A stretch of 15,128 nucleotides of DNA, taken from NCBI GenBank assembly GCA_030044455.1, contig JASHVU010000098.1, positions 1 to 15,128 on the forward strand, read 5' to 3'. A program made the position numbers and the translations under genes. The stretch comes from Acidobacteriaceae bacterium. GTDB lineage: Bacteria > Acidobacteriota > Terriglobia > Terriglobales > Acidobacteriaceae. This document shows, one piece after another, positions 1-15,128 of the stretch (positions are counted from its first letter, which is position 1; every line of letters starts with the position of its first letter). The notes under the pieces are model-generated. The model saw nothing but the letters and a program-made list of their open reading frames with translations, had not been told where the DNA came from and ran no database searches.

Positions 1-1023
1 TCCCTGGCCCTGGCCGCGGCAACTGCCGGCGCTCAGGTTGCTTCCCACGCACCGGCGCTCAGGTCCATGCCTGCTCCAGCCACATCCGCGCCTGCTTCAG
101 CCGCGTCCATGCTAGATCCGATCGTGGTTACTTCAGAGCCCGTGGCTCACGTGAACGGCACAGTCTTGACGCAAGCCGACCTGGTCCGTGAGGAATACGC
201 AATCTTCCCTTACGCCCGCCAGCACAACGGGATTCCGAAAGACATGGAACCCGAGATTCGTCAGGGTGCGATGCGCATGATGATCTTTGAAGAGCTCGTC
301 TACCAGGAAGCCCAGCGGCGCAAAATGACCGTCCCGCCTGTAAGGATGCAGAAGGCCGAGATGGATTTCCGCAAAACCTTTACCACACCGGAAGAGTACA
401 ACGCGTTCATCGAGAGCGAGTTTCGAGGCTCGCAGCAGTTGCTCGATGCAAAGATCCGGCGTTCGTTGCTTATTGATGCCCTGCTCAAGACCGAGGTGCA
501 GAGCAAGAGCCAGGTGACTCAGATCGAGGCACGGGCCTATTACGACAAACATCCCGAACTCTTCAAGATTTCTGAGTCCTATATTTTTCAGACTCTCTCG
601 GTCATCGTGCCCGACAAAGCCACGCCTGAACAGGCAAAGGAGGCACGTGTGCGGGCCGAGAAAGACCTGCCCCAAGCCAAGGCGACGAAGACCAACGATG
701 AATTCGGTCTGCTGGCCGAAAAAGCATCTGACGACGACTACCGGGTGATGGAGGGGCAGCACAAGGCCACACCGGTGGATGAGCTGCCGCCCCCGGTCTT
801 CGAAGCCCTGCACTCGATGAAGGTCGGCGACGTAAGCAACGTCATTCAGGTCGGGCAGGATTTCACCATTCTCCGCCTCAACGCACACATTCCGGCGGGC
901 AAGCAGAGGTTTGAAAACGTGCAAGTAACACTCACCAGAAACCTGGAGCAGCAGAAAACCAACAAACTTCGCGCTGCACTGGACCAGAAACTGCGGCAAA
1001 GCGCAAAGATCGAAGAACCTTAG
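1..1023 (+). CDS. SurA/parvulin-type periplasmic folding chaperone (5' partial)
   Basis: The reading frame is open from base 1. The first codons encode an Ala/Leu-rich segment (SLALAAATAGAQ) that looks like the end of a signal peptide, so the true start lies upstream and the ATG at 67 is probably internal. An Ala/Pro-rich linker follows (about residues 13-40 of the visible 340), then a SurA-N-like helical region opening with 'PVAHVNGTVLTQADL' (about 50-160), and a parvulin-like region (about 215-315) with the family features AREKAE-like helix, 'FGLLAEKASDD', 'PPPVFEAL' and 'MKVGDVSNVIQVGQDF'. The C-terminus is a charged helix. The usual active-site histidines of parvulins (xHIL and GYHII) are absent here ('TLSV', 'GQDFTI'), which points to a chaperone role more than efficient prolyl isomerisation. 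It lies 105 bp upstream of an outer-membrane barrel gene and multiheme cytochromes, so their folding and export is its likely job. Family call is firm; client assignment is inference. Confidence 0.85.
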   Translation, partial: SLALAAATAGAQVASHAPALRSMPAPATSAPASAASMLDPIVVTSEPVAHVNGTVLTQADLVREEYAIFPYARQHNGIPKDMEPEIRQGAMRMMIFEELVYQEAQRRKMTVPPVRMQKAEMDFRKTFTTPEEYNAFIESEFRGSQQLLDAKIRRSLLIDALLKTEVQSKSQVTQIEARAYYDKHPELFKISESYIFQTLSVIVPDKATPEQAKEARVRAEKDLPQAKATKTNDEFGLLAEKASDDDYRVMEGQHKATPVDELPPPVFEALHSMKVGDVSNVIQVGQDFTILRLNAHIPAGKQRFENVQVTLTRNLEQQKTNKLRAALDQKLRQSAKIEEP

Positions 1024-1128
1024 GCGGTTGGGGGCCCGACCGAGCTGGACCCTCTCGACATCGCCCGAAACCGTGAACGTATCAGTTAACCGCAAGACCT
1101 AGCCAAGTAGAGTGACGGATCGCAAACA

Positions 1129-2964
1129 GTGCCGGGTTTCTTTCGAGTCGCGTTGGTTTTGCCCGCCGGGCTGCTGGTTTTGGCGGCCCCGCTTGCCGCA
1201 CAGCTAAAGCTCGGTGACTTCAGTTCAACATTGAACGGAAACGTGTCATCGGGCTATACGGCGGACTTCGGAAACCAGACTTCGTCGGACCATGGCTGGA
1301 CGGCAGGCGGAACGACCAATCTTGGGGGCAGCTTTTACAATCCCAACTTTATTAACTACGCAGCGTCGGTCTTCCTCAACCAGTCGCGCGCCAACTCCTC
1401 GTTTCAATCCATCTCCAACTCCAGCGGCGTTGCCTTGTCGACAAATGTTTTTGGCGGCAGCCATTTCCCCGGCGCCATCACCTATTCCAAGAACTTCGAC
1501 AGAGAGGGCAACTACGGCCTGCCGGGCACTCCCAATTATGTGACGCACGGCAACAATGGGGACCTCGGCATCACCTGGGGCTTGAATCTGCCTAAAGCGC
1601 CCACCTTTACCGCCGGCTTCCAAATGGGCACGGACAATTACACCGTTTATGGATCGGACGATGAGGGCAACAGTTCATTTCATTCGATCAATCTCCATTC
1701 TTCCGATATGCTGCAGGGGTTCAGCATGAACGGCACCTACGACCGTGGCGCGAGCCATTCCCTGGTTCCCGAAGTCGTGAGCGGCGAATCGGAGTCTGAA
1801 ATTCAATCCAGTTCCGACGGTTACGGATTCGGAATTTCACATGCACTTCCGTTGCATGGTTCGGTATCAGCCAATGCCAGCCGCTCAAGCTTCAATACCG
1901 ATTCCGCAGGCTCAACTGCAACCGGCACGGTTGATTTGCTCAACCTGGTCGCAGCCGTCCTTCCGGCGCCGAAACTAACCATCTCGGGCAACGTCGATTA
2001 TTCCGACAACCTGGCCGGGCAACTGGCCGAGGCTGTGGTGAGCGCAGGCGGTGCGGTTCCGGCCAGTCTTGACAATCAGACATCCTATTCTCTTGATACA
2101 CAGGTCACCATGACGTATCTTGCGACTGAGGCAATTCAAACCTCCGTCTACGCCGAGCGGCGCGAGCAGTATTACCAGGATCAGACATATTCAGCCAACA
2201 CGTACGGTGGAAACGGATCTTTCACGCACCGGCTCGGAAACGGCACATTCAGCGCCTCATTGCTCATGGCCGGTAACACCGCGCCTCAGCAGGGAGCGGA
2301 CTCCCTGAGCTTCGCGGCCTCAGCGCATTATTCAGGCGAGCTTGAGGGTTGGATCTTTAACGGCTCGGTGAGCTACGCCCAAAACATGGCCACCCTCCTG
2401 GTGGCGGACATGAACTCGACTTACGACATCTCGGCCAGCGCGCATCGAAGATTCGGCCAGTTCAACGTCAGCGCGGGAGGCTCGAGCGCGAGGACGGCGT
2501 TGACGGGCCAGTCGGGCACTTCAAGCAGCAGTGAAGGCTACAACGCCAGCCTGGGCTACGGCTCCTTGATCGACGCCACCGGCAGCTACTCAAAGTCGAG
2601 CGGCCAGGCGCTGGTCACAGGTGCGGGCCTGGTCACAGTGCCGGTTCCGCCTCCCACGCTGCCCTCCGACTTGGTTGCTCTTTACGGTGGAACCAGCTAT
2701 TCCGGGACACTTTCGAGCGCTCCCATCAAAGGGCTTACCCTTTCCGCCAGCTACAGCAAATCCGACGCCAACACCAGCGACAACGGAACCAATACCACCA
2801 ATCAGAATGAGCAGTACAATGCAATTGTTCAATACCGCATTCGCAAAATGGGGTTTACCAGCGGCTTTGCGCGGCTGGACCAGGGCTTTGGCGGGACATC
2901 GAACCCGCCTTCGATCATTTCGTCGTTTTATGTGGGGTTAACGCGTTGGTTCAACTTCTTCTAA
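1129..2964 (+). CDS. Outer-membrane beta-barrel (porin-like) protein of a cytochrome locus
   Basis: This 611-residue protein starts at a GTG; a TAG at 1108 in the same frame leaves no earlier start, and the ribosome site is weak. Residues 1-24 form a signal peptide ending PLAAQ. The rest is rich in Gly, Ser, Asn, Thr and alternating hydrophobic residues, typical of amphipathic beta-strands with long polar loops. The last residues (GLTRWFNFF) end in Phe, the classic signal for outer-membrane assembly. I see no cysteine and no heme motif. It is longer than general porins and shows no TonB plug. It sits between a periplasmic chaperone gene and an NHL propeller plus 12-heme cytochrome, where porin-cytochrome conduits and the osc system of Geobacter carry barrel proteins. 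Its role as an electron conduit sheath or cytochrome secretion channel is inferred from position only; the family is not recognised by sequence. Confidence 0.8.
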   Translation: MPGFFRVALVLPAGLLVLAAPLAAQLKLGDFSSTLNGNVSSGYTADFGNQTSSDHGWTAGGTTNLGGSFYNPNFINYAASVFLNQSRANSSFQSISNSSGVALSTNVFGGSHFPGAITYSKNFDREGNYGLPGTPNYVTHGNNGDLGITWGLNLPKAPTFTAGFQMGTDNYTVYGSDDEGNSSFHSINLHSSDMLQGFSMNGTYDRGASHSLVPEVVSGESESEIQSSSDGYGFGISHALPLHGSVSANASRSSFNTDSAGSTATGTVDLLNLVAAVLPAPKLTISGNVDYSDNLAGQLAEAVVSAGGAVPASLDNQTSYSLDTQVTMTYLATEAIQTSVYAERREQYYQDQTYSANTYGGNGSFTHRLGNGTFSASLLMAGNTAPQQGADSLSFAASAHYSGELEGWIFNGSVSYAQNMATLLVADMNSTYDISASAHRRFGQFNVSAGGSSARTALTGQSGTSSSSEGYNASLGYGSLIDATGSYSKSSGQALVTGAGLVTVPVPPPTLPSDLVALYGGTSYSGTLSSAPIKGLTLSASYSKSDANTSDNGTNTTNQNEQYNAIVQYRIRKMGFTSGFARLDQGFGGTSNPPSIISSFYVGLTRWFNFF

Positions 2965-2969
2965 AGGAA

Positions 2970-4037
2970 GTGCGGCGGAAACGTCGCTGGGCATCGCCGG
3001 TTCTCGCCCTCATCCTGTTGACCCCGGTCTTTGCATATCCAAAGCCCAAGACCTCTTCACCTCCGGAGCTGTGGGAACTCTCACTGGATGGCGGTCGCAG
3101 GCTTGTCTGGGAGCACAGCTTCGGCTCAGAGTCCGAGGTAAGGAAGGTCGGTTTCTGGGGCAAGGTCGTCGATGTAGTTGCGGGTGCGCCGGAGATGCAT
3201 TCCATGGTGCGTCCTTACAGCGTCGTCACCGACTCTCGCGGACGCGTCATCGTCACCGATCCGGGTGCAGCGGGAATACACATCTTCGACTTCAACGCAC
3301 ACAAATACAAATTCATCCAGCGCATCAAGAACGAGCGTGATTCCATGCTCTCGCCGCAATGCGTTGCCGTAGACGCCCAGGACAATATCTACGTGACCGA
3401 CTCCAATGCCGGCGTGATCTTTGTTTTCGACGCAAACGGCAAATTTCAACGCACGATCGGCAGCCTGCGCGGGGGTGAAGGCTACTACGAGCGGCCAACC
3501 GGCATAGCCATCGACTCTGCCGCGGGGCGCATTTACCTCAGCGACACGCTGCGCAACAAAATTCTTATCCTCGACATGCAGGGCAAGGTCGTGAAATTGA
3601 TCGGCCAAAAGGGAGACGCAGACGGAGATTTCTACTTCCCGACCGAGCTCCGGCTCTCCGGCCCCGATCTGATCGTTGTCGATGCCATGAACTTCCGCCT
3701 GCAGTTTTTCGATCGCTCCGGCAACTTCGAGTCGTCGATGGGAAGCATCGGCGACTGCGCAGGCGCATTTTATCGTCCCAAGGACGTCGCGGTCGATTCA
3801 GAGGGTGACGTCTATGTCGTCGATTCTTCGCTGGGAGCCGTGCAGGTTTTCAATCGAAAGGGCCAGTTGCTGTATTACTTCGGCGAAAAAGGAACTCACG
3901 CCGGCGAATTCCAACTGCCTTCAGGGTTGTACATTGATCAAGAAGACCATGTTTACGTGGTCGACTCATTCAATCGGCGCGTGCAAGTGTTTCATTATTT
4001 TGGTTTGAACAAGCCGGCAGGGGAGGCGCCCAAGTGA
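2970..4037 (+). CDS. Secreted six-bladed NHL-repeat beta-propeller protein
   Basis: The product is 355 residues from the GTG at 2970. That start gives a clean signal peptide (RRKRRW followed by a hydrophobic stretch, ending VFAYP). An in-frame TTG at 2946 would overlap the barrel gene and add eight residues; neither start has a well-spaced ribosome site, so translational coupling is likely. Six NHL repeats follow, each with a Val/Ile-Asp ... Val/Tyr-x-x-Asp ... Phe-Asp/Asn pattern: PYSVVTD, PQCVAVD, PTGIAID, PTELRLS, PKDVAVD and PSGLYID, which fills a complete six-bladed propeller. An N-terminal segment with 'RRLVWEHSF' precedes them. NHL propellers usually bind proteins or other ligands and are not enzymes by default. 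It begins 5 nt after the barrel stop and overlaps the 12-heme cytochrome start by 4 nt, so it is cotranslated with both. A homologous propeller accompanies the second cytochrome module. By analogy with propeller OscD of Geobacter it may shape or dock a cytochrome assembly; that is inference. Confidence 0.85.
   Translation: MRRKRRWASPVLALILLTPVFAYPKPKTSSPPELWELSLDGGRRLVWEHSFGSESEVRKVGFWGKVVDVVAGAPEMHSMVRPYSVVTDSRGRVIVTDPGAAGIHIFDFNAHKYKFIQRIKNERDSMLSPQCVAVDAQDNIYVTDSNAGVIFVFDANGKFQRTIGSLRGGEGYYERPTGIAIDSAAGRIYLSDTLRNKILILDMQGKVVKLIGQKGDADGDFYFPTELRLSGPDLIVVDAMNFRLQFFDRSGNFESSMGSIGDCAGAFYRPKDVAVDSEGDVYVVDSSLGAVQVFNRKGQLLYYFGEKGTHAGEFQLPSGLYIDQEDHVYVVDSFNRRVQVFHYFGLNKPAGEAPK
4020..4026 (+). promoter_or_regulatory. 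Ribosome binding site of the 12-heme cytochrome
   Basis: GGGGAGG lies 7 nt before the GTG at 4034, inside the end of the propeller gene. It decides the GTG start, which overlaps the upstream stop as GTGA and implies coupled translation. Confidence 0.75.
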
Positions 4038-5923
4038 GGCTCCGCAATCTCCTCACCGTCCTGACCATCGTCTCGGCGGCAGCTGTTGCGTCTGGCCAGA
4101 TTACTGGCGACGCGTTGGGCGTGCACGACTTCGCGCCCACCGGTACTTCTCCCGTCACCGGTATGCGGCCCGACGCGTGTTCTTACTGTCATGCGCCCCA
4201 TTCCGGCCTTAACACCGGGTTGTGGAATCAGAAGCTGACCAAACAGATCTATACCACCTATTCCAGCGATACCGAGAAGAACGTCACCCAGCAGCCCACC
4301 ATCGGCGGTCCCAGCAACCATTGCCTAAGCTGTCACGATGGCACAGTCGCGATGGGCTCAACCGTTGTGTTTGGACAGGTGACGACGCACGGGTCGATGA
4401 ATGCGCAGGATGTTTTCGGTAGCAATATGCAGCCGACCCATCCCTTCAGCATGGTGCTGCCGCTGAAAGACAGTATCGACCTTTTTTCTTCGCTGGCCGC
4501 GAATCATCGCACCAACGATGCCACCGGTGCAGTCACGCTGGTGAATGGCAACGTCGAATGCACCTCCTGCCACAACCCGCACGTGCAGGCTAAAGACCCC
4601 GTGGCCCTCAATTTTCTTGTCCTGAACTCTGCCAGCGGCGCGCTCTGCCTCGCCTGTCATAATCCCAATCGGAGAATCAGCGGCCAGGTCAATCCCATCG
4701 AGGACTGGTCGACCGGCGCACACGCAACTTCAACTGCAAAAATCTCGCAGAGCGCCTCGGTGGGCAGCTACGCCACCGTAACCGCGAACGCGTGCGAATC
4801 GTGCCACGCCGAGCACAATTCTGCGGCGGGGTCGCGCCTGCTGCGCGGCTTAAACGAGCAGGATTGCATCGGTTGCCACAATGGATCGAATGTTTCGCCC
4901 ATGCCGGCCTATACCAATGTCTTTGCCGAGTACGCCTCGCCCAAGGTGGGCCATCCCTTTCCTACCTCAAACAATCCCCATGATCCCGCCGAAGCCGTAC
5001 TGCTCAACAACAATCGGCATGCCACCTGCGTCGATTGCCACAATGCGCATAGCTCTCAGATCGTCGCAACCTTTTCCCGTCCTCCACTCATTCGCATTTC
5101 GCAACGCGACATTGCAGGCATAAGCTCGACCGACGGCACCACGGTTCTTACGCCAGCCGTCAATCAGTACGAGAACTGCCTGCGCTGCCACGGCATGAGC
5201 GCGGGAAAGCAGGTGCTTCCGATTTATGGTTATTTTCCCAACCGCGCCGTCTCGGCCGGCGACCCGCTCAACCTGATTCCGCAGTTTGCCCCCACTGCCA
5301 CCTCAAGCCATCCGGTGATGCACGTAAGCAACAGCGCATTCGCGCAGCCCAGCCTGCGCACCCGAATGTTGCAGCTTGACGGCATTACGCAAGGCCGCGT
5401 CATGGGCACCCAGATATTCTGCACCGATTGCCACAACAGCGACGACAATCGCGAGTTCGGAGGAACAGGCGCCAATGGCCCCCACGGGTCAAAATGGACC
5501 CATATACTCGAACGCCGTTACGAGTTCAGCCAGACCGCAACGCCGGGCGGTTTGATCAGCAATCTCTTTCCCACTCCCGACCTCACCATTACCGGCCCCT
5601 ACGCCATGTGCGACAAATGCCACAACCTGGCCAGCCAGGTGGTGAAGAATACCAGTTGGACATATCACAGCAACCACATCAACGATGGATTCTCCTGCTC
5701 CACCTGCCATACGGCCCACGGCATGGGCGCCACCAGCGCCACCATAACCGGTGAGCGGCTCATCAACTTCGACGTGAATGTTGTTGCCGCCAACAACGGC
5801 CAACCAGTCAGCTATAACCGCGCCACCAACAGTTGCGTGCTGGTCTGCCACCAGACGGCGCACAACGCCAACGGCACGGTCACCCACGTTACTTTGCGGA
5901 CGGGTTTTTCGCCGCGCAAATAG
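4034..5923 (+). CDS. Secreted 12-heme c-type cytochrome, three tetraheme modules
   Basis: This 629-residue protein has a signal peptide ending about VASG-Q at residue 22. Eleven CXXCH heme sites are visible (CSYCH at 49, CLSCH at 97, then CTSCH, CLACH, CESCH, CIGCH, CVDCH, CLRCH, CTDCH, CDKCH, CSTCH) plus a non-canonical CX3CH (CVLVCH at 601-606), so 12 c-hemes are expected. There are 34 histidines after the signal, enough for bis-His ligation of all. The layout repeats every four hemes: CxxCHxxH, CxxCHxG, an isolated His-Pro, CxxCHxxH and CxxCH, clear in hemes 1-4 and 5-8 and looser in 9-12. The motifs CxxCHxPH belong to the doubled-CXXCH cytochromes common in metal-reducing bacteria. It closes the chaperone-barrel-propeller operon, so it is probably exported to or across the outer membrane for electron transfer. 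Alternatives are a periplasmic electron store or an oxidoreductase, but no catalytic motif (for example CXXCK) is present. Confidence 0.93.
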   Translation: MRLRNLLTVLTIVSAAAVASGQITGDALGVHDFAPTGTSPVTGMRPDACSYCHAPHSGLNTGLWNQKLTKQIYTTYSSDTEKNVTQQPTIGGPSNHCLSCHDGTVAMGSTVVFGQVTTHGSMNAQDVFGSNMQPTHPFSMVLPLKDSIDLFSSLAANHRTNDATGAVTLVNGNVECTSCHNPHVQAKDPVALNFLVLNSASGALCLACHNPNRRISGQVNPIEDWSTGAHATSTAKISQSASVGSYATVTANACESCHAEHNSAAGSRLLRGLNEQDCIGCHNGSNVSPMPAYTNVFAEYASPKVGHPFPTSNNPHDPAEAVLLNNNRHATCVDCHNAHSSQIVATFSRPPLIRISQRDIAGISSTDGTTVLTPAVNQYENCLRCHGMSAGKQVLPIYGYFPNRAVSAGDPLNLIPQFAPTATSSHPVMHVSNSAFAQPSLRTRMLQLDGITQGRVMGTQIFCTDCHNSDDNREFGGTGANGPHGSKWTHILERRYEFSQTATPGGLISNLFPTPDLTITGPYAMCDKCHNLASQVVKNTSWTYHSNHINDGFSCSTCHTAHGMGATSATITGERLINFDVNVVAANNGQPVSYNRATNSCVLVCHQTAHNANGTVTHVTLRTGFSPRK

Positions 5924-5944
5924 GGACCTGCAACCACAGGCTTC

Positions 5945-6814
5945 TCAAATCACCGTACCCGCCGAGCCTCCGTTCATCTCATTCGACTTGTCGGCATGGC
6001 ATTGCCGGCAGAACTGCGATGTCGAGTTTGAGTTGGGGTTGGTATTACTCGGATTGTAGGGCGCCCGCAGGAAAAACATGGTCGGGTAAGTCCCCTTCGG
6101 CAACCCGGATTGTGAACTGGCGGTGATATTGACCACGTTCATGGTGTGCGGATCGTGGCAGGTGGTGCAAAGCACGACTGCGGTGTTGTTGTACACGCCG
6201 GGCTGGACAAAGAACCCATAGTTCGTCACAAACCGGCTTGACATAGCGCCGGTCATCAGAATCTTGCCATTCGTTTGCGCACAGTCCCAATTAGCGCCTC
6301 CGCCGCCACAATTCAATTTCGCGCTCAGGCCCATCGGGTGATCGCTCAGATAGCTGCTGCTGCCTCCGATCCTGGTTCCGAACATGGTGGGAACTGTATT
6401 CTGTGTCCCATAAGTCGCCGGCAGCGCCTCATAGACTTTGTTTTTCATCATCGCCGACGATGCATAATTCCCGTCGTGGCAGCTCAGACAGGTCAGCATG
6501 CCTTCCACATCGGGGGTATTGGCTGAGAGGCTCGTAGGCAGGACCTCCACATAGGCTCCTCCGCCGGTCGCAATTGTCTTGCCGTAAAGGCTCGAGACGT
6601 CTTCACCCCAGAGCATGTTCGAACCCGCTGACGCGTCGGCTGATTTCGCGCTCCCGTTGCCGGCTGAGCCGCTGTGCGCGGCATGGCAGGCCGAACAACC
6701 TCGACCGGAGTTCATGTGCGCTCCCAGAACGTCGGTAACCGGACCCGCCTTTTGGCCTGCAATGAATGCCGAACATGGGAGGAATATCAGAGCAATCAAC
6801 CCGCGCCGATGCAT
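5945..6814 (-). CDS. Secreted tetraheme c-type cytochrome
   Basis: The 289-residue product has a signal peptide (MHRRG, then a hydrophobic run ending about FIAG-Q). It carries four heme sites: C40-C43-H44, C109-C112-H113, C216-C219-H220 and C269-C272-H273. The mature chain has exactly eight histidines: the four proximal ones and H33, H47, H159 and H223, so each heme can just be bis-His ligated. Two further cysteines (C169, C178) bracket a Gly-rich loop and may form a disulfide. C14 is in the signal peptide without a proper lipobox. The order of motifs (GAH, CSACHxxHSG, LW, CLSCHDG, DHP, CTTCHDPH, CRQCH) matches the first tetraheme module of the neighbouring 12-heme cytochrome, so they are paralogous. 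It is Gly/Ser/Asn/Thr rich. It converges with the 12-heme gene (21 bp between stops) and has its own strong ribosome site. Tetraheme OmcE-type cytochromes form nanowires; a similar polymer is possible but unproven. Confidence 0.93.
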   Translation of the reverse strand: MHRRGLIALIFLPCSAFIAGQKAGPVTDVLGAHMNSGRGCSACHAAHSGSAGNGSAKSADASAGSNMLWGEDVSSLYGKTIATGGGAYVEVLPTSLSANTPDVEGMLTCLSCHDGNYASSAMMKNKVYEALPATYGTQNTVPTMFGTRIGGSSSYLSDHPMGLSAKLNCGGGGANWDCAQTNGKILMTGAMSSRFVTNYGFFVQPGVYNNTAVVLCTTCHDPHTMNVVNITASSQSGLPKGTYPTMFFLRAPYNPSNTNPNSNSTSQFCRQCHADKSNEMNGGSAGTVI

Positions 6815-6821
6815 GGATTAG

Positions 6822-6830
6822 AACCTCCTT
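6822..6830 (-). promoter_or_regulatory. Strong ribosome binding site of the tetraheme cytochrome
   Basis: Read on the minus strand this is AAGGAGGTT, a near-perfect anti-16S match, ending 7 nt before the ATG at 6814. It fixes the start and suggests high translation compared with the GTG-initiated genes of module A. Confidence 0.85.
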
Positions 6831-7044
6831 GGGTGTCCCTCACCTCATCGACAAACCCCTCCCGGGCAAGACATTACGACGGTCATTGGGGACAGTTTTG
6901 TTGGAGAAAAGGCGCAATTCGCCGGAAGGCAAGCAGAACTCTGTTTGAATCCAGGGCAGTTAAATTGGAGGGTTCTCATGATGCTGGCCGGGTTGATCGC
7001 CTGATCGGAGCCATGGAAAGTCCTTTGCGGCAGGTTCTCGATTC

Positions 7045-7060
7045 TGTGATATGAATCACT
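7045..7060. promoter_or_regulatory. CRP/FNR-family operator-like palindrome
   Basis: The site is TGTGATATGAATCACT. It matches the CRP half-site pattern TGTGA-N6-TCACA at 9 of 10 positions and the FNR pattern TTGAT-N4-ATCAA at 8 of 10. Its centre (7052.5) is 41.5 bp upstream of the start predicted from the TCTAAT -10 box, the classical class II activator position. The regulator itself is not in the window. Confidence 0.5.
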
Positions 7061-7087
7061 TTCAGGGCCAGCCAATCCATTTCTAAT
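7059..7087 (+). promoter_or_regulatory. Putative promoter of the 16-heme cytochrome operon
   Basis: The -10 box TCTAAT at 7082-7087 matches TATAAT at five of six bases. With a 17-bp spacer the -35 is CTTTCA (7059-7064), a poor match that overlaps the operator, as expected for an activator-dependent promoter. Transcription would begin near 7094, leaving a leader of about 100 nt. Confidence 0.45.
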
Positions 7088-7195
7088 GTTCCTGCGCAGT
7101 TGTTTTCATTCCATTTGCAAGACGGGTGAGCAATCACGCAGCCGCTCTCGTGCGTTGGGTCGGCAGGCACTTAAATTGGCGCTTTCCCAGGGTTT

Positions 7196-8695
7196 ATGAA
7201 TCTTCTCCATCATCGCATCCGGCTCTCGAGCAGTGTCGCTTCAAAATGCGGCCACCCCGTAGTCTTCAGAATCCTTGCCGTGGCGGCATTCCTGGTCTTC
7301 ATTACGGCGCGGGCGACGGCTGCTATCCATCCCGTTCCGCTCGACCCCAAGGCCGATCCCTCGACCTGCCTCCAATGCCATGAGGACAAGACCAAGGGAA
7401 AGTCAGTGCACTCGGCCATGCAACTGGGCTGCCTGACCTGCCACGAAATTCGCGTGAATAAAGACGTAACGCGCGTCAAGCTGATCACAGCCACGCCGGT
7501 TTCGCTCTGCCTCACATGCCACGCTGACAAAAAGGCCAGCGACATCAAAGGCACAGTCCACCCTCCCGCCGTTCGCGACTGTATGAGCTGCCACGATCCC
7601 CACTCGAGCGACAACAAGAACCAGTTGCTCAAGCCGGAGTCGGGCGATGCCAAAGACAATCTCTGCCTGAGTTGCCACACCACCGGCATGAGCACGCTTG
7701 CCGGCGGCAGCCGCCACGCCGCGCTCGACATGGGCTGCGATACCTGCCATTTGACCCACAAGACCGGACCGGAGCCAACCATCGAGAACAGGTTCCACCT
7801 GACCAAGGCAACGCCTGCGCTGTGCGTCGATTGCCACGACCCCAAGGACGCCGACTTACAAAAGGCGCATAACAACCAGCCCTTCGGCACAGCGAACTGC
7901 GTGGAGTGCCACGATCCCCACCAGTCCGACAAGCCCAAGCTGATGGCAAAGTTCCAGCACGCTCCGTTCCAGGCAGGCGGCTGCGATACCTGCCATGCAC
8001 CGGCAAAGGACGGCAAGGTTGTGCTGACGCAGACTGACGTCAAGTCGCTTTGCGTCACCTGCCACGACGACAAGGCCAAGCTTATTGATAACGCCAAGGT
8101 GCCGCATCCCGGCGCGGCCGGCGACTGCACCGATTGCCACAGCCCGCACGCCAGCAACGAATCCGGCCTGCCCAAGACCGACTCCGTAAGCATCTGCCTG
8201 GGATGCCACAGCGACGTGCAGGAGGAGGCCAAGAAGCCCTTCCATCACCAGCCGGCCTTCGGTTTGGGCTGCGCCACCTGCCACACCCCGCATGGCGGCG
8301 ACAACGATCACCTGCTTCGCGCCGCGGGCAACGCTCTGTGCCTGGAGTGCCACGGCCCCGATTCTGTTCCGCAAAAGACCGACGACGGAATGCTGGCCAT
8401 CTTCAACGGCCAGATCAAGCTGCCGGCCGACTATTACCAGAAGAACCAGGTACCCATCCTGCCGCTCAAGTTCGGCCTCGGACACCCGGTTGACTACCAT
8501 CCGGTCTCAGACGTGATGGACCCGAAAAGCCTGACCAAGATCAAGGCCCATTTGACCTGCCTCTCCTGCCACCAACCGCACGCTTCGGCGCAGCCCAACC
8601 TGCTGGTCAAGGACCAGGCCAACAACATGCAATTTTGCGACATGTGTCACAAGAACCGGCTCAACATGGAAGAGACCGTTTCCCCCGGGAATTGA
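7196..8695 (+). CDS. 16-heme c-type cytochrome with doubled-CXXCH repeats
   Basis: The 499-residue product begins with a long n-region (about 24 residues), then a hydrophobic segment ending ARATAA near residue 43, read as a signal peptide, although retention as a membrane anchor is possible. Sixteen CXXCH motifs run from C58 to H485, about one per 27 residues, an extremely heme-dense chain. They alternate as a repeating two-heme unit: CLxCH, a lone His (often VHP or RHA), then CxxCHxPH, and a Leu-Leu or Lys-Leu turn, repeated about eight times. This is the doubled-CXXCH architecture of extended multiheme 'wires'. The ATG at 7196 has only a weak, close AGGG. The gene follows a CRP/FNR-like site and precedes an NHL propeller gene by 12 bp. 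Likely role: carrying electrons through the periplasm or across the outer membrane; location is not determined by sequence. No catalytic heme motif is visible. Confidence 0.93.
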   Translation: MNLLHHRIRLSSSVASKCGHPVVFRILAVAAFLVFITARATAAIHPVPLDPKADPSTCLQCHEDKTKGKSVHSAMQLGCLTCHEIRVNKDVTRVKLITATPVSLCLTCHADKKASDIKGTVHPPAVRDCMSCHDPHSSDNKNQLLKPESGDAKDNLCLSCHTTGMSTLAGGSRHAALDMGCDTCHLTHKTGPEPTIENRFHLTKATPALCVDCHDPKDADLQKAHNNQPFGTANCVECHDPHQSDKPKLMAKFQHAPFQAGGCDTCHAPAKDGKVVLTQTDVKSLCVTCHDDKAKLIDNAKVPHPGAAGDCTDCHSPHASNESGLPKTDSVSICLGCHSDVQEEAKKPFHHQPAFGLGCATCHTPHGGDNDHLLRAAGNALCLECHGPDSVPQKTDDGMLAIFNGQIKLPADYYQKNQVPILPLKFGLGHPVDYHPVSDVMDPKSLTKIKAHLTCLSCHQPHASAQPNLLVKDQANNMQFCDMCHKNRLNMEETVSPGN

Positions 8696-8697
8696 TT

Positions 8698-8701
8698 GGA
8701 G
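8698..8701 (+). promoter_or_regulatory. Ribosome binding site deciding the start of the second propeller
   Basis: GGAG sits 6 nt before the ATG at 8708. This favours ATG 8708 over the in-frame TTG at 8696, which has no ribosome site of its own. Confidence 0.7.
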
Positions 8702-8707
8702 ATTCAA

Positions 8708-10018
8708 ATGTCCAGCTTCCTCTTCAATTCGACTCGCGCCACCAGGACGCCGGCCCTGCTGCTGATCGCTGCACTGGGTATCGCCGTTCCTTTTGCGGCT
8801 TATGCATCAAGCAAGAAAAAAACTACGGCCGATACAACGCCGGCCGCCGGTCCGCGCACATTCAAATTCGATCCCAAAACCCTTGTCTGGCCGAGCCCTC
8901 CCAACGTCGCGCGCGTTCGTTGGATGGATTACTTTGCGGGGGTCAAAATCGACTATTCTGCGCCCGCCGCCACCAAGACCAAGGCATCCTGGATGGACCG
9001 GCTGGCAGGCACGCAATCGCAACAGGAAAAAGTCGATACCAAGGCATTCCCCTTTCAGTTGATCGGTCCCTACGGCATCGCCATCGACTCGAAGAACAAA
9101 GTCTACGTCGCCGATCAGAAAGTCGGCGCGGTATTCATCTTCAACACTGATACGCACGACACTGAGCTCATCCGCAATGGATACGAGGCGCACTTTGGTT
9201 GGATCAACGGATTGGCGATCGACGACGACGATCGGCTCTTTGTATCCGACGGCAAATTGCACCACGTCCTGGTCTTCAATCCCAAGCATGAACAGGACGG
9301 ACAGATCAGCGAAGGCCTTGTGGACCCGGTGGGCCTGGCCATCGACACGACCAATCGATTCCTCTACGTAGTGGATACCCAGCAGGACCAGGTGATGGTC
9401 TACGATGCCGATACTTACAAGTTACTGCGCCGCATCGGCACGGGCGGCAAGAATCATACGCTCACCAGCCAGGGAGACTTCGGCGCGCCGCAAGACGTGG
9501 CTGTGGATGCCGACGGCAACATCTATGTCACCGACACGCTGAATGATCGCGTTGAGATTTTCGATGCCGATGGCAACTTTATCAGCACCTTCGGCAAAAA
9601 CGGCGATGGCCCAGGTTACTTCGAGAGGCCCAAGGGGATTTCCATCGACAGCGATGGACATATCTGGGTTGCCGACGAGGTTCAGGACCGCCTGCAGGTT
9701 TTCGATAAAGACGGCCACTTACTCACGTACATCGGCTACAAACACGGCGATCTTCCCGGTCAATTCCAGGCGCTGGTCGGAGTCGCCATCGACAAGAACA
9801 ACCGGGTCTTCACTACCGAGCAGTATCCCGGCCGCCTGCAGGAATTCCAATACATCAGCGACGCGCAAGCCGCAGCTGAGAAGCGGCAGGCTGAAGAAGC
9901 GGAGAAACGCGCCACGCAGCATCCGAAGGTGTCTACGCAGTCCTCCACCGGGAAGCCGGCGCCACCGGCAGCGGCTGCTTCGCAGATTGGAACGAGCACA
10001 CCAAAAGCATCGCAATAG
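8708..10018 (+). CDS. Second secreted six-bladed NHL-repeat beta-propeller protein
   Basis: This 436-residue protein has a signal peptide (hydrophobic LLLIAALGIAV, ending AYASS at about residue 34). An N-terminal segment contains 'LVWPSPPNVARVRWMDYF', a Trp-Pro-x-Pro-Pro motif I associate with propellers of cytochrome clusters in metal-reducing bacteria. Six NHL repeats follow: PYGIAID, INGLAID, PVGLAID, PQDVAVD, PKGISID and LVGVAID, each with a Val/Ala-x-Asp strand and Phe-Asn/Asp turn, giving a full propeller. The C-terminal 65 or so residues are different: a charged Ala/Glu/Lys helix, then a Pro/Ala/Ser/Thr tail likely disordered. It lies 12 bp after the 16-heme cytochrome gene and is probably in its operon. 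It is a paralogue in architecture of the propeller at 2970-4037 but longer at both ends. A structural or assembly role for the cytochrome is inferred; some NHL proteins are enzymes (for example peptidyl-amidoglycolate lyases), but I see no evidence for that. Confidence 0.87.
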   Translation: MSSFLFNSTRATRTPALLLIAALGIAVPFAAYASSKKKTTADTTPAAGPRTFKFDPKTLVWPSPPNVARVRWMDYFAGVKIDYSAPAATKTKASWMDRLAGTQSQQEKVDTKAFPFQLIGPYGIAIDSKNKVYVADQKVGAVFIFNTDTHDTELIRNGYEAHFGWINGLAIDDDDRLFVSDGKLHHVLVFNPKHEQDGQISEGLVDPVGLAIDTTNRFLYVVDTQQDQVMVYDADTYKLLRRIGTGGKNHTLTSQGDFGAPQDVAVDADGNIYVTDTLNDRVEIFDADGNFISTFGKNGDGPGYFERPKGISIDSDGHIWVADEVQDRLQVFDKDGHLLTYIGYKHGDLPGQFQALVGVAIDKNNRVFTTEQYPGRLQEFQYISDAQAAAEKRQAEEAEKRATQHPKVSTQSSTGKPAPPAAAASQIGTSTPKASQ

Positions 10019-10124: not shown

Positions 10125-10359
10125 CTCGAACATCCCATCACGCCGTTTTCCCCCGGCGGAGCTCTCTACTCGCTCGACTCTTCCGGCAAAGCGTGAGCTT
10201 TACACGCAAACCTTCCGCCATTGAACGCGTGAACTGGGCTCCAAATAAGAACTCCAAGCGCTGGTTGCAGGGGTACCGATGAGCGCTGGAGAGTCTACAT
10301 CAGCGCAAATCTACCCGGCGCCAGTCGGGCATGAGCAGTAGAGCTGAATCAAATTTTTT

Positions 10360-10366
10360 AGGAGGA
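10360..10366 (+). promoter_or_regulatory. Ribosome binding site of the TonB-dependent receptor
   Basis: AGGAGGA lies 6 nt before the ATG at 10373. This perfect Shine-Dalgarno selects 10373 over an upstream in-frame start at 10331, which would also spoil the signal peptide. Confidence 0.9.
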
Positions 10367-10372
10367 ATAGCT

Positions 10373-13300
10373 ATGCAAATGGCCGCGACGAGAAAGCTGT
10401 ATGCTTGGGCGCTGTGTTGTTCTCTGGGTTGCACGGTTGCCTTCGGTCAAATTGGTTCCACATCGCTGCGCGGCACGGTCAAGGATTCAAGCGGTGCAGT
10501 CGTCCCGGGCGCAACGGTCACAGCCACCAACCAGGCAAGCGGGATCGCTTATCATACCCAGACAAGTAGCGCCGGCTTTTATGTTTTCCCTGATCTTGTT
10601 CCGGCACACTATCTGGTTACTCTCACCGCCAACGGATTCGGTACTCAAGTTCGCTCCGCTGAACTGCTCGTCAGCCAGCCCGCCACCATCGATTTCGCTC
10701 TTAGCGTTCGGGCGGAAAGCATTACCGTCGACGTCAGCTCAGAGGCTGAATCACTCAACCTGACTGACGCCACCATGGGCAATGCCGTCGGCAACGACAC
10801 CATTCAGGCTCTGCCCATGGACGGCCGCAACCCCATCGCCCTGCTCACCCTCCAGCCCGGCGTGCTCTACATCGGCAACGAGGTTTCTGACAGCCGCCAG
10901 GGTGCCGTAGCCGGCGGACGTTCCGACCAGGGCAACGTTACTCTCGACGGCATCGACGATAACGACCAAGTTTTTGGCACTGCGTTCACAGGCATTCTGC
11001 GCTCCACGCTCGACTCCACTGAGGAATTTCGCGTAGTTACATCAGACGCAACCGCTGCCTCGGGCCGCTCCTCCGGCGCCCAGGTCGACTTGGTCACCAA
11101 GAGTGGCACCAACCATATCCATGGCTCGGCTTACGAGTACTATCGGCCCACTAACACCGTCGCCAACGCCTACTTCTACAAGAACGAGGAACTGACTTCT
11201 GATTCGCCGAACATCCCGCAGAAATACGTCCTCAACACCTTTGGCGGCGCTTTCGGCGGCCCTGTGAAGAAAGACAAGCTCTTCTACTTCTTCAACTACG
11301 AAGGCCAGCGTCAAGCCATCGATGAGGTTGTAGAAGCGACCGTTCCCACGCCCAGCTTCATGGCTGGCGGCCTGCAATATACAAACACCAATAATCAGAC
11401 TGAGCCCTTGACGGCTACGCAAGTAGCCAACATGGATGAGCCCTGCGTCAACAATACCTTCAAGGGCGCACCGGTTTGCCCGGACGGCCCAGGCGCTAAC
11501 GGCGCGGTGCTCAGCTATCTTGCTCCTGTCAAGACATCCACAAATCCCATCGGGGGAGATGGTGGATTGAATAGCGCTGCCCTGTTTTTTACTTCGCCCG
11601 CACCATCTACCCTCAACACCAGCATTCTCAAACTCGACTACACTCCCAATAGCAAGAACCGCTTCTTCGTCCGCGGAAATCTGCAGAAGGACACCACAGC
11701 CGGAGCTGAGAATCTTCCTGGACAGGGCCCGGCCACCTTCTACGACGACAACACCAAAGGCATCGCCGGCGGCTACACATGGATTCCAACCGCGCACATC
11801 GTGAACGACCTCCGCTACGGCTATGTCCGCCAGGGCTGGCAAAGCGGCGGAATCGCCCCGGGTAACTGGGTCGATCTTTACGGCCTCACACAGCCCACGG
11901 CGCAGACCGGCTCCAGCTTGCTCCACGTGCCGGTAAACAACATTACCGACACTCTCAGCTGGAACAAAGGCACGCACACCCTTGCTTTTGGCGGAACCTG
12001 GCGCGGCATCACCAACCACCACTCCGGCAACGGCGGGTCATTTGGTGGCGCCAGCACCAACTACCAGTATGCAAACACCAGCGATTTGCCTGAACCCGCG
12101 GATATGTCCGCCAGCTTTAAAAACTCATGGCAGCTCGCATGGGCGGATCTCATGGGAATCATCCCCGAGTTGAGTTTGCCGTATAACTACGCCATCACCA
12201 GCCCCACCGCGGCGACCGCCCAGCCGGAAGGCGCACCCGTCGTCCGCAACTTCCGTTCCAATGAACTCGAGGGCTACGTGCAGGACGCCTGGCATGCACG
12301 CTCCAACCTGACCTTTACCTACGGCGTGCGCTATACGCTGCTGCAGACGCCTTACGAAACCAATGGCCAGCAAATCTCATACAACATTGACATGGATGCC
12401 TGGTACAAGAAGCGCGAGACGGAAGCATTGCAGGGCCAGGTGTACGAGCCACTCCTGTCGCTGGCTCCATCAGGCAAAGCCAATCACGCTCCAGGATTCT
12501 GGCCCGTACAGAAAAAGGACTTTGCTCCGCGCATTGGAGTTGTGTGGTCGCCTGACGAAAAAACCTCAGTCCGCGCCAGTGCCGGAATGTATTACGACCA
12601 CTACGGTGAGGCGCTCGTGAATAACTGGGACACCAGCGGCGAGAGCGAAATTGGCCTCGCTGCTGAAGTCACCAACACGGCCGACCTGTTGGGCTTCGAG
12701 CAAGCGCCCCGCTTTACCGGCCCGCATAACCTGCCCGACATCACGCTGCCATCGTTCCCAACGACTGAGTCTTACCCCTTCGCGCCCAACGTGGGCAATT
12801 ACGGCATCAACTGGGGCATGGACAACCACATCAAGACACCCTACGCCGAGGCCTACAATTTCTCGATCCAGCACGAGCTGCCAGGCGGTTTCATGTTTGA
12901 AGAGGCGTACGTGGGGCGGCTTGGCCGGCATTTGCTGCAAGACCTGGATCAGGCTGAACCTACCGACTTTGTTGACCCCGCAGGCGGCGGCGACTACTTC
13001 AGCAACGCCGCAATCCTCTCCAAATTGGTCGATCAGGCACCGTTCGGTACCCAGCAGTACGGCATCTTTGCTGGCAGCACGCAGAAAATCAACAACAACG
13101 TCCCCACGATTCCCTACTTCGAGGACGTTTTCTCGTATATGAAGAACTACGACTACATGGGCGAAAGCGCCAGCCAGGCCGTCTACAACGATGCCTGGGC
13201 TCCATTCCGCTACAACAACGGCGAGACCTTTTCACTCTTCTGGATGGACGTGAATCCCTACGGCCTCTTTCCCGGCAGTCCCGGTGCCAACGGAGGCCAG

Positions 13301-14155
13301 CCTGATTTCTGGAACCAGCAGTTCTCTTCGCTCTACGCGATGTCTTCTATCGGCACCAGTTCCTACAACGCGCTCCAGTTCACCCTCCGCCATCCCGCCT
13401 CGCACGGATTGACGGTCGACGTTAGCTATACGTTCTCGAAGTCGATGGATCTGGGCTCTGAAACCGAGCGATCCAGCATCTTCACCAACCAGGATGATGC
13501 GTATGTGAACTTCTCCATCCAGAACACGTGGAACCCCAAGCTCAACAAGGGGGTTTCGGACTTCGATACCCACAGCCTGGTTACCACCGACTGGGTTTAC
13601 GTCCTCCCCGTGGGCCGCGGTAAGGCCGCCCTCGGTGGCATCAATCGCGTCGCTGATGCTTTTCTCGGTGGATGGCAATGGTCTGGTCTCTCGCGCTGGA
13701 CCAGTGGACTTCCTTTCACCCTCCAATCCGTCGCCTATCCCACCAACTTTAACTATCAGGCCTTCGGCTTCAACATCGGCGGCGTCAGAACCCACAGAAA
13801 CATCACTAACGGAATTCCTCATGTCTTCGACCAAACGACGGCGAACGCCATCGGCAACGGCATTTATTTCGGCAGTCCCATTCGTCTGCCCTACGCGGGC
13901 GAAGCCGGACAGCGCAATAACTTCCGCGGCGATGGGTATATGGACATCGACATAGCACTGGCCAAGAATTGGAGCCTGGGCGAATGGGCAAAGCTGAAAT
14001 TTGCCGCCGAGGCTTACAACGTAACCAACACTGTCCGTTTCGACACCAGCCCGGTCGGCTTGGTTGATGGCACCGGCAGCGCGACCCTTGGCACATACGA
14101 CGCCCCGCTCTCTACCTATCGCCGGATGCAGTTCGGCCTGCGGCTCGATTTCTAA
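10373..14155 (+). CDS. Oar-like TonB-dependent receptor with carboxypeptidase-regulatory-like domain
   Basis: The 1260-residue product starts after a perfect ribosome site and has a signal peptide (KLYAWALCCSLGC, ending AFG-Q at about 26). Residues about 30-110 form a carboxypeptidase-regulatory-like beta-sandwich ('LRGTVKDSSGAVVPGATV', 'AGFYVFPDLVPAHYLVTL'). Next is a TonB plug (about 120-260) with 'ALPMDGRNPIALLTLQPGV', 'GNVTLDGIDDND' and 'AQVDLVTKSGTNHIHGSAYEYY', then a long barrel ending in Phe (FGLRLDF). The plug and fused domain place it in the Oar/TonB-dependent family that is greatly expanded in Acidobacteriota, usual length about 1000-1250 residues. Such proteins import large substrates, often polysaccharides, across the outer membrane using TonB energy; the substrate here is unknown and no partner hydrolase gene is visible. 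It has its own promoter, long leader and terminator, so it is probably a single-gene unit. A link to the cytochrome locus is not shown. Confidence 0.93.
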   Translation: MQMAATRKLYAWALCCSLGCTVAFGQIGSTSLRGTVKDSSGAVVPGATVTATNQASGIAYHTQTSSAGFYVFPDLVPAHYLVTLTANGFGTQVRSAELLVSQPATIDFALSVRAESITVDVSSEAESLNLTDATMGNAVGNDTIQALPMDGRNPIALLTLQPGVLYIGNEVSDSRQGAVAGGRSDQGNVTLDGIDDNDQVFGTAFTGILRSTLDSTEEFRVVTSDATAASGRSSGAQVDLVTKSGTNHIHGSAYEYYRPTNTVANAYFYKNEELTSDSPNIPQKYVLNTFGGAFGGPVKKDKLFYFFNYEGQRQAIDEVVEATVPTPSFMAGGLQYTNTNNQTEPLTATQVANMDEPCVNNTFKGAPVCPDGPGANGAVLSYLAPVKTSTNPIGGDGGLNSAALFFTSPAPSTLNTSILKLDYTPNSKNRFFVRGNLQKDTTAGAENLPGQGPATFYDDNTKGIAGGYTWIPTAHIVNDLRYGYVRQGWQSGGIAPGNWVDLYGLTQPTAQTGSSLLHVPVNNITDTLSWNKGTHTLAFGGTWRGITNHHSGNGGSFGGASTNYQYANTSDLPEPADMSASFKNSWQLAWADLMGIIPELSLPYNYAITSPTAATAQPEGAPVVRNFRSNELEGYVQDAWHARSNLTFTYGVRYTLLQTPYETNGQQISYNIDMDAWYKKRETEALQGQVYEPLLSLAPSGKANHAPGFWPVQKKDFAPRIGVVWSPDEKTSVRASAGMYYDHYGEALVNNWDTSGESEIGLAAEVTNTADLLGFEQAPRFTGPHNLPDITLPSFPTTESYPFAPNVGNYGINWGMDNHIKTPYAEAYNFSIQHELPGGFMFEEAYVGRLGRHLLQDLDQAEPTDFVDPAGGGDYFSNAAILSKLVDQAPFGTQQYGIFAGSTQKINNNVPTIPYFEDVFSYMKNYDYMGESASQAVYNDAWAPFRYNNGETFSLFWMDVNPYGLFPGSPGANGGQPDFWNQQFSSLYAMSSIGTSSYNALQFTLRHPASHGLTVDVSYTFSKSMDLGSETERSSIFTNQDDAYVNFSIQNTWNPKLNKGVSDFDTHSLVTTDWVYVLPVGRGKAALGGINRVADAFLGGWQWSGLSRWTSGLPFTLQSVAYPTNFNYQAFGFNIGGVRTHRNITNGIPHVFDQTTANAIGNGIYFGSPIRLPYAGEAGQRNNFRGDGYMDIDIALAKNWSLGEWAKLKFAAEAYNVTNTVRFDTSPVGLVDGTGSATLGTYDAPLSTYRRMQFGLRLDF

Positions 14156-14183: not shown

Positions 14184-14219
14184 CAAAAGTGCGGCCCGTC
14201 GACCGGGCCGCGTTTTTTG
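14184..14219. terminator. Strong rho-independent terminator, possibly bidirectional
   Basis: A perfect 8-bp GC stem (GCGGCCCG at 14191-14198, CGGGCCGC at 14204-14211) with a TCGAC loop is followed by G and six T. An A-rich stretch on the left flank pairs with the T-run, so it could stop transcription from either side. It lies 30 bp after the receptor stop codon. Confidence 0.9.
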
Positions 14220-14285
14220 TCCAGAGTTCCTCGGGGACCAAGACTATGTTTTTCTTGCACACCATGCAATCGCTCGTGTCCTCGT

Positions 14286-14294
14286 TGCTATAAT
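14286..14294 (+). promoter_or_regulatory. Extended -10 promoter of the CRTAC1-family gene
   Basis: TGCTATAAT is a perfect extended -10 element (TGnTATAAT). No good -35 is found at 16-18 bp, as is usual for extended -10 promoters. Transcription would start about 7 nt downstream, at or next to the GTG at 14301, implying a leaderless or nearly leaderless mRNA. Confidence 0.55.
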
Positions 14295-14300
14295 CCCGTG

Positions 14301-15128
14301 GTGAACGTATCGCGCCGTCATATTCTTCAGTTATCCGCAACCATTCTAGGTCCCGGCATCCTCGATTTTCTTCGCATGCCATCCTGGCGTTGGTCGAGCC
14401 TGCCAATTCTCGAAGCCGCGTCGATTCCCACCCCGCCGGCGACGCAAAGCGCGTCACCACGAGTGCAATTCGTGGATGTAGCCCGTGAGGCCGGACTCAC
14501 GACGCCCAATGTCTGGGGCGGGGTTGACACCAAGAAGTACATCATCGAGGCCAAGGGTAGCGGCATCGCGTTTTTCGATTACGATCAGGACGGCTGGCTT
14601 GATATTTATCTCACCAATGGATCTCGTCTGTTTACCACATGGCCGGAGGGCAAGGCGCCAACCACCCAGCTCTATCACAACAATCGCGACGGCACCTACA
14701 CTGACGTGACGGCCAAATCGGGCCTCGGCCGTTCCGGATGGCAGACCGGCGTCTGCGTCGGCGATTACGATAACGACGGTTGGGACGACCTGTTTTGCAC
14801 ATTCTGGGGACACAATATCCTGTTCCGCAACAACGGCAACGGCACCTTCACCGATGTAACCAAGGAAACAGGGCTTTGGAACGATGATGTTCGCTGGGGT
14901 TCCGGCTGCACCTGGATTGACTACGATCGCGACGGACTTCTCGATCTTTTTATTGCGAATTACATAAAGTTCGATCCGGCAATGACCCCGGCGCCTGGCG
15001 ACAATGCCTCATGCCAATACAAAGGCGAGCCGGTGATGTGCGGCCCGCGTGGGCTCCCCCCGGGAACCAACCTCCTCTATCACAATAATGGCGACGGCAC
15101 GTTCACTGACGTCTCAGAGAAATCGGGA
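14301..15128 (+). CDS. CRTAC1-family FG-GAP/VCBS repeat protein with Tat-like signal (3' partial)
   Basis: The frame is open from GTG 14301 (or the adjacent GTG 14298) to the window end, 276 codons, and continues beyond. Residues 4-13 read SRRHILQLSA, a twin-arginine-like motif, followed by a modestly hydrophobic stretch, suggesting Tat export. The mature part opens with 'FVDVAREAGL' and carries FG-GAP/VCBS units with Ca-binding Asp-rich loops: FDYDQDGWLD (about 92), GDYDNDGWDD (154) and IDYDRDGLLD (206), alternating with 'LYHNNRDGTYTDVT', 'LFRNNGNGTFTDVT' and 'LYHNNGDGTFTDVS'. The pair in 'SCQYKGEPVMCGP' (C238, C247) is typical of the CRTAC1 family. In this family an ASPIC/UnbV domain usually follows, which would lie outside the window. 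The protein is likely extracytoplasmic; its function is unknown. There is no Shine-Dalgarno, matching the leaderless layout. It is transcribed separately from the receptor gene by virtue of the terminator between them. Confidence 0.87.
   Translation, partial: MNVSRRHILQLSATILGPGILDFLRMPSWRWSSLPILEAASIPTPPATQSASPRVQFVDVAREAGLTTPNVWGGVDTKKYIIEAKGSGIAFFDYDQDGWLDIYLTNGSRLFTTWPEGKAPTTQLYHNNRDGTYTDVTAKSGLGRSGWQTGVCVGDYDNDGWDDLFCTFWGHNILFRNNGNGTFTDVTKETGLWNDDVRWGSGCTWIDYDRDGLLDLFIANYIKFDPAMTPAPGDNASCQYKGEPVMCGPRGLPPGTNLLYHNNGDGTFTDVSEKSG

Follow-up and report, generated by a model that had tools for sequence, protein, structure and literature searches.

An acidobacterial gene cassette encoding OmcE-like and MtrA-like cytochromes, a candidate apparatus for extracellular electron transfer

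The 15,128 bp contig JASHVU010000098.1, which as a whole constitutes the window analysed here, comes from a 76.5%-complete metagenome-assembled genome (MAG) of an Acidobacteriaceae bacterium whose named close protein relatives are from Terracidiphilus sp. Three multiheme cytochromes are encoded on it, together with a peptidyl-prolyl isomerase (PPIase), a predicted outer-membrane barrel and two NHL propellers, and we consider it somewhat more likely than not that the locus specifies an extracellular electron-transfer apparatus in which a cytochrome filament of the OmcE type is joined to an outer-membrane conduit of its own. This reading is based on homology to OmcE and to MtrA, on synteny counts in relatives, on the co-occurrence of the barrel with the 12-heme cytochrome and on the adjacency of ResB/CcsA-type genes. 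The cassette bears on two problems, the secretion of cytochrome filaments and their charging at the outer membrane; being compact, and combining a filament-type subunit with an MtrA-like rod, a barrel, a chaperone and a possible module-bearing adaptor, it offers a defined gene set in which both can be tested. The genes concerned are the following:

1..1023, plus strand: parvulin/SurA-type PPIase (Pfam PF13145/PF00639), 5' end cut by the contig edge
1129..2964, plus strand: predicted large outer-membrane beta barrel, 611 amino acids (AlphaFold2 model, Foldseek/VIA matches)
2946..4037, plus strand: NHL beta-propeller 1 (NHL1; PF01436), start TTG 2946 assigned by homology
4034..5923, plus strand: 12-heme cytochrome (11 CXXCH and 1 CX3CH), with an OmcE-like tetraheme module at residues about 23-220
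5945..6814, minus strand: tetraheme cytochrome related to OmcE, an inverted paralogue (HHalign against OmcE+9YUQ; distal His columns)
7196..8695, plus strand: 16-heme MtrA-like cytochrome (family profile against MtrA 6r2q_A; 16 CXXCH)
8708..10018, plus strand: NHL beta-propeller 2 (NHL2; PF01436)

An original prediction made from this DNA had listed cytochromes with 12, 4 and 16 hemes, and the motif count bears these numbers out: 11 CXXCH plus one CX3CH (hence "12"), 4 and 16, far above the expectation from shuffled sequences (mean CXXCH of 0.06, 0.01 and 0.15, respectively, with a maximum of 3 in 1000). The parvulin-class chaperone, the predicted barrel ending in Phe and the two NHL propellers that it named were likewise recovered, by Pfam and, for the barrel, by AlphaFold2.

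The OmcE-like cytochromes

The reference structures for the first two cytochromes are PDB 7TFS, the filament cytochrome OmcE of Geobacter sulfurreducens (PMC12954529), and PDB 9YUQ, which carries only the name "Putative multiheme cytochrome c". The profile of the 12-heme family matched both over its first four hemes (E 8.9e-24 for OmcE 7TFS and 1.4e-18 for 9YUQ, the next PDB match being at 6.6e-5), and HHalign of OmcE+9YUQ against this first module gave an E-value of 9.7e-27. For the tetraheme family, the same comparison with OmcE+9YUQ reached 98.1% and E 7.2e-14, whereas control alignments of OmcE+9YUQ with four segments of the 16-heme family stayed between 8.6e-7 and 1.6e-5. The tetraheme family and module 1 of the 12-heme protein aligned with each other at E 5.9e-18, against a best value of 1.9e-8 for other cross-family pairs. 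When searched against the PDB, the tetraheme profile matched 9YUQ at 4.7e-7 (best stretch 0.0017) and an unrelated c555 trimer at 0.0087. Judged by these profile alignments and by the columns described below, the window tetraheme and module 1 of the 12-heme protein are homologous to OmcE.

The heme ligands tell the same story at the level of single residues. In an alignment of 44 sequences, comprising OmcE, 9YUQ, 16 distant tetrahemes, the first 14 of 31 tetraheme rows and the first 12 of 35 12-heme rows, four CXXCH motifs, four distal histidines, a Trp, the DG after heme 2 and an HP pair were identical in 44/44 sequences; the 16 distant tetrahemes had been chosen by their four CXXCH and their OmcE score, and the CXXCH columns are thus shared partly through selection. 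Residues H31, H58, H149 and H208 of OmcE correspond to H33, H47, H159 and H223 of the window tetraheme. In the OmcE filament, heme 2 is ligated by a His from the adjacent subunit (PMC12203936); the rise of this filament is 34 Å (PMC12954529). The tetraheme rows came from an alignment of 30 of the 45 short tetrahemes with the window protein (A7). Among distant Acidobacteriota, the OmcE profile scored tetrahemes encoded near the 12-heme gene with up to 145 bits (L104), with 139 bits in L105 and 127 bits in L109. Proteins 53-56% identical to the L104 tetraheme carry names from Bacteroidota and Ignavibacteriae, and the OmcE-like tetraheme family is therefore not confined to Acidobacteriota.

Beyond its first module, the 12-heme protein is conserved as a whole, with 11 CXXCH and one CX3CH kept in 51/51 complete relatives. 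The alignment of 34 of these 51 with the window protein (A2, 35 rows) contains, besides the 12 heme histidines, 15 further invariant ones. Module 2 presents an OmcE-like His layout, with HHalign E-values of 1.8e-8 to OmcE and 4.1e-10 to module 1, but its status as an OmcE module is unproven because other cross-family pairs of heme proteins reach 1.9e-8. Module 3 gave no OmcE match (HHalign E 4e-4), and a description of the protein as three OmcE modules was rejected as unproven. No chain named MtrC appeared among the PDB matches of the 12-heme profile.

The MtrA-like cytochrome, the barrel and the chaperone

The family profile of the 16-heme cytochrome matched MtrA (6r2q_A) at E 9e-26, the next PDB match being at 0.0015. 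The window protein scored 182.9 bits with TIGR03508, the DmsE/MtrA subfamily model, below its cut-off of 192.2, and its residues 56-226 matched PF22113 (MtrC/MtrF domains II/IV) with 46.4 bits for a cut-off of 30. Its alignment (A3, 31 rows: 30 of the 33 sixteen-motif relatives and the window protein) showed 16 CXXCH and 16 further invariant histidines, with one more at 94%, and the supernumerary invariant histidines of both large cytochromes are consistent with bis-His ligation throughout. In the sequence file, chain A of 6r2q, which is MtrA, is called "Cystathionine beta-synthase", an apparent labelling error.

The 611-residue barrel protein had no match in Pfam or NCBIfam, and its family profile had no PDB sequence match at E up to 1. 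Its N-terminus is signal-peptide-like and its C-terminus reads RWFNFF. An AlphaFold2 model built with 46 close relatives presents 28 strands with a moderate mean pLDDT (predicted local distance difference test) of 65.5, below 50 in the first 65 residues, and by Foldseek/VIA it matches outer-membrane barrels, MtrB (6r2q_B) having the highest TM (template modelling) score, 0.47, among the 50 PDB rows listed. MtrB/PioB-family Pfam domains were absent from the window barrel, from 40 family members and from 10 barrels of distant relatives. The barrel alignment (A4) contained 35 of 49 barrels, the window barrel and 4 database proteins. As for the remaining parts, the PPIase scored 5.6e-15 with PF13145 and 1.3e-6 with PF00639, and the propellers 2.2e-26 (NHL1) and 7.1e-26 (NHL2) with PF01436; the NHL alignments hold 21 of the 48 sequences listed for NHL1 (A5) and 20 of the 33 listed for NHL2 (A6).

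Gene order in the window and in close relatives

The barrel was found in 8 of the 60 genomes searched, the window's own included, and all 8 are among the 36 genomes of the window's genus, which makes the cassette patchy within it (8/36). The seven other genomes all present the order PPIase-barrel-NHL1-12-heme, with a tetraheme gene before the PPIase. A scan with the barrel alignment, restricted to one genome per species, returned 57 loci, all titled Acidobacteria or groups within this phylum; it rested on two short peptide patterns, which limits its sensitivity, and since the loci were found via the barrel they are selected for its presence. Wherever the neighbours could be tested, the PPIase directly preceded the barrel (47/47) and a tetraheme gene preceded the PPIase (42/42), NHL1 followed the barrel (52/54, the exceptions being L050, which does show an NHL1 match, and L067), the 12-heme gene followed NHL1 (52/52) and NHL2 followed the 16-heme gene (32/32). 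The chaperone-barrel-propeller-cytochrome order that had been noticed in the window is thus conserved in relatives. In 24 loci NHL2 stands before the tetraheme gene, giving the collinear series 16-heme, NHL2, tetraheme, PPIase, barrel, NHL1, 12-heme, although in some of them the available DNA does not include the 16-heme gene; 13 loci have the 16-heme-NHL2 pair downstream, 9 of them with an extra inverted tetraheme gene as in the window, and in 4 loci the available DNA did not include this pair.

Only part of the original picture of the window stands. The "one tight operon" does not hold: the 4-heme gene lies on the minus strand, a single operon spanning the whole window was rejected for this reason, and the collinear units are PPIase-barrel-NHL1-12-heme and 16-heme-NHL2. 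A promoter and terminator scan of positions 5800-7300 found none. The parts of the predicted gene set are real and the set is incomplete, because a tetraheme gene precedes the PPIase in every testable relative and a second one is expected upstream of the PPIase here; this operon copy lies off the contig and was not found elsewhere in the 76.5%-complete MAG. The start of NHL1, placed at 2970, was probably set 24 bases late: 18 of the 21 aligned relatives begin with MVQ, which makes the TTG at 2946 the most likely start. This start codon appears inside the last barrel codons, and over positions 2946-2964 the conserved RWFNFF end and the beginning of the propeller share the same DNA. The GTG start of the 12-heme gene at 4034 in turn overlaps the NHL1 stop, and the two overlaps suggest possible translational coupling of the barrel, NHL1 and the 12-heme cytochrome.

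A comparison that was not selected through the barrel points in the same direction. When 395 genomes of the phylum are ranked by their 12-heme match, the top 8 (E up to 1.1e-166, the next being 5.5e-114) coincide with the 8 that match the barrel profile at a threshold of 1e-8, the cut after these 8 having been placed once the list was known and one barrel match (G123) being partial (E 2.6e-17); none of the 38 further genomes with a 12-heme match gave a barrel-profile match. Pairwise identities are also correlated between the six protein families (r from 0.57 to 0.89), a pattern that common descent by itself would produce too. Finally, cytochrome-biogenesis genes of the ResB and CcsA type diverge from the cassette in 2 of 3 loci (L043:1730-4670 and L079:1654-4388), the third (L057) having an alcohol-dehydrogenase-like gene in their place.

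Wider distribution in Acidobacteriota

With E-values up to 1e-20, 46 of the 395 phylum genomes matched the 12-heme profile, in some cases solely over the OmcE-like module. From these we assembled a distant set of 20 regions with long matches in 12 families, leaving out the window's own genome and five others with long matches, and we called OmcE-like any protein whose best profile was OmcE, the tetraheme or a 12-heme module. An NHL gene precedes the 12-heme gene in 20/20 regions, a PPIase of the cassette family is present in 7/20 and an open reading frame (ORF) of barrel size or with a barrel profile in 16/20. An OmcE-like tetraheme is found in 17/20, being absent in L108, L114 and L116, the last two of which have contigs ending beside the NHL gene. 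The distant 12-heme relatives mostly have 11 CXXCH, with 10 in L105, L114 and L116 and 13 in L117. Ten distant barrels gave no informative Pfam match (OMP_b-brl below cut-off in one, AMIN in one).

Six of the distant regions (L109-L113 and L115) present a variant with a 5-heme protein, the barrel of L111 not being called separately. The order in the other five is OmcE-like tetraheme, NHL, 5-heme protein of about 200 residues, barrel, NHL, 12-heme; in 4 of these 5 a 13-heme protein then follows on the same strand, and L115 has one inverted further down. Some distant ORFs are especially rich in heme motifs, with 23 CXXCH in 618 residues (L118), 21 in 617 (L117) and 19 in 841 (L114).

Proposed mechanism and alternative explanations

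In the apparatus that we propose, periplasmic electrons would enter the 16-heme MtrA-like rod, which would pass through the large barrel, and would reach the 12-heme cytochrome at the outer face, where a filament built of OmcE-like tetraheme subunits may dock on the N-terminal OmcE-like module of this protein. Folding of the barrel and/or the secreted cytochromes would fall to the parvulin, and each propeller could partner one large cytochrome (NHL1 the 12-heme and NHL2 the 16-heme protein), probably acting in assembly or capping. While homologies, heme counts, ligand histidines, gene order and recurrence in the phylum can be read from the sequences, we infer from them the localisation and export of the proteins, the pairing of barrel and cytochrome, polymerisation, the adaptor role of the 12-heme protein, the roles of PPIase and propellers and the direction of electron flow. 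A more specific version, in which the 12-heme protein acts in many families of Acidobacteriota as a covalent adaptor leading from an MtrA-like rod inside a 28-strand barrel to a growing OmcE-type filament, is put forward tentatively and with clearly less confidence than the general one. If true, the cassette would link porin-cytochrome conduits with cytochrome nanowires, which are as a rule treated apart, and its conservation in a major soil phylum would mean that Acidobacteriota, too, can be expected to form conductive filaments in soil and peat.

The combined reading of filament and conduit is weakest at these points: the direct hmmsearch of the tetraheme profile against OmcE 7TFS was weak (E 0.037), the AlphaFold2 model of the tetraheme failed (pLDDT 46.9, with no Foldseek match below E 5), the barrel match is ambiguous, Foldseek/VIA not separating MtrB from TonB receptors, and the 12-heme protein has no visible surface anchor.

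The failed tetraheme fold test, together with the MtrA homology and the large barrel, favours the best placed of the alternatives, a porin-cytochrome conduit without filaments, which we nevertheless consider unlikely. Here, the 16-heme protein and the barrel would span the outer membrane, while the tetraheme and the 12-heme protein would be monomeric carriers, at the surface or in the periplasm, that serve an extracellular acceptor such as iron or humics. Genes of the MtrA/DmsE type as well as porin-cytochrome complexes are reported in Acidobacteria (PMC3669403, PMC7399161, PMC13264449), the last of these sources stating that nanowires were not investigated. Such a conduit resembles MtrCAB/DmsEF, with which the window shares an MtrA-like cytochrome, a match of this cytochrome to PF22113 and a very large predicted barrel whose top TM score among the PDB rows listed goes to MtrB; by part types, a barrel clustered with multiheme cytochromes also recalls the porin-cytochrome clusters of Geobacter (OmbB-OmaB-OmcB, ExtABCD and others). 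The window differs from MtrCAB/DmsEF in having 16 hemes instead of 10 and a barrel without an MtrB-family sequence match, and it further encodes a PPIase, two propellers and a 12-heme protein that contains an OmcE module. A conduit without filaments leaves unexplained the OmcE set of distal histidines in both the tetraheme and the 12-heme module, as well as the OmcE-profile scores in distant relatives.

Rather less probable is a nanowire assembly machine of the osc type, in which the PPIase, the propellers and the barrel would mainly fold and secrete the filament, the 16-heme protein being a client or a periplasmic partner. The original prediction had compared the locus with the osc cluster, where OscH is a prolyl isomerase and OscD a propeller. 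In the osc operon, OscH is assigned to folding, OscE/F/G to secretion and OscD to morphology (PMC13194489), and by part types the two are alike: the window combines a folding factor, candidates for secretion and for a morphology protein with a nanowire-type cytochrome, including, as in osc, a prolyl isomerase (PF13145/PF00639) and a beta-propeller (PF01436). The synteny upholds the predicted cluster as a conserved unit with parts of both the nanowire and the porin-cytochrome type. Kinship with OmcS was rejected: PDB searches with the 12-heme and tetraheme profiles (both at E up to 1) and with the 16-heme profile (E up to 0.1) returned no OmcS chain, and the locus is, by its client, not an osc cluster. 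By motif count, the window contains no hexaheme gene. The client is related to OmcE, not to OmcS, and the accompanying 16-heme protein resembles MtrA, a member of a conduit family, which together with the 12-heme protein sets the cassette apart from osc. An osc-type machine nevertheless overlaps with the combined apparatus, as one barrel could serve both. The weakest alternative places the system in the other direction or elsewhere, as electron uptake (for example, Fe(II) oxidation) or a periplasmic pathway; MtrA-like proteins are also found in Fe(II) oxidisers (PMC3669403) and the direction of electron flow is not readable from sequence, but an OmcE-type subunit with a large barrel argues for a surface-exposed system and nothing oxidation-specific occurs among the annotated proteins, which makes this explanation quite improbable.

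As far as sequence comparison goes, the cassette is closer to OmcE than to OmcS by client and resembles Mtr in one part by conduit. With the OmcE filament (7TFS) it shares a homologous tetraheme, in which four CXXCH and four distal His are laid out alike and the W, CHDG and HP are conserved, and ResB/CcsA-type genes beside the cassette (L043, L079), the Geobacter biogenesis pair GSU0613-0614 being close to omcE by locus number (PMC2700814). The window tetraheme is, however, larger (289 residues against 232 in the PDB chain) and divergent; it is encoded beside barrel, MtrA-like, chaperone and propeller genes, whereas omcE of Geobacter is a predicted single-gene transcript (PMC1829397), and a second OmcE-like module is built into the 12-heme protein. 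Homologues of OmcS, OmcE and OmcZ have been found across bacteria and archaea (PMC12307469, citing Baquero 2023 and others), which weakens any claim of full novelty. A term search in the text of Shi 2014 (PMC4245776) gave no mention of Acidobacteria, and no description of the cassette was found in the portions of the literature searched, which excluded Shen 2025 (osc) and Baquero 2023.

Flanking genes

Annotation of 20 flanking proteins provided additional observations. A PMT_2 glycosyltransferase gene directly follows the 12-heme gene in 3 of 10 loci (L041:9492-11009, L042:10119-11636 and L054:12548-14209), and because OmcE is reported to be extensively glycosylated (PMC9473688), a link of this gene to filament glycosylation may be suggested, though only as a suggestion. 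A pair of TPR genes lies upstream of the operon in 2/2 loci (L026 and L033). In the window, two further features follow the cassette:

10331-14155: TonB-type outer-membrane protein (CarboxypepD_reg + OMP_b-brl_4)
14217-15128: FG-GAP protein

The DNA of the FG-GAP protein has many partial matches elsewhere in the same genome.

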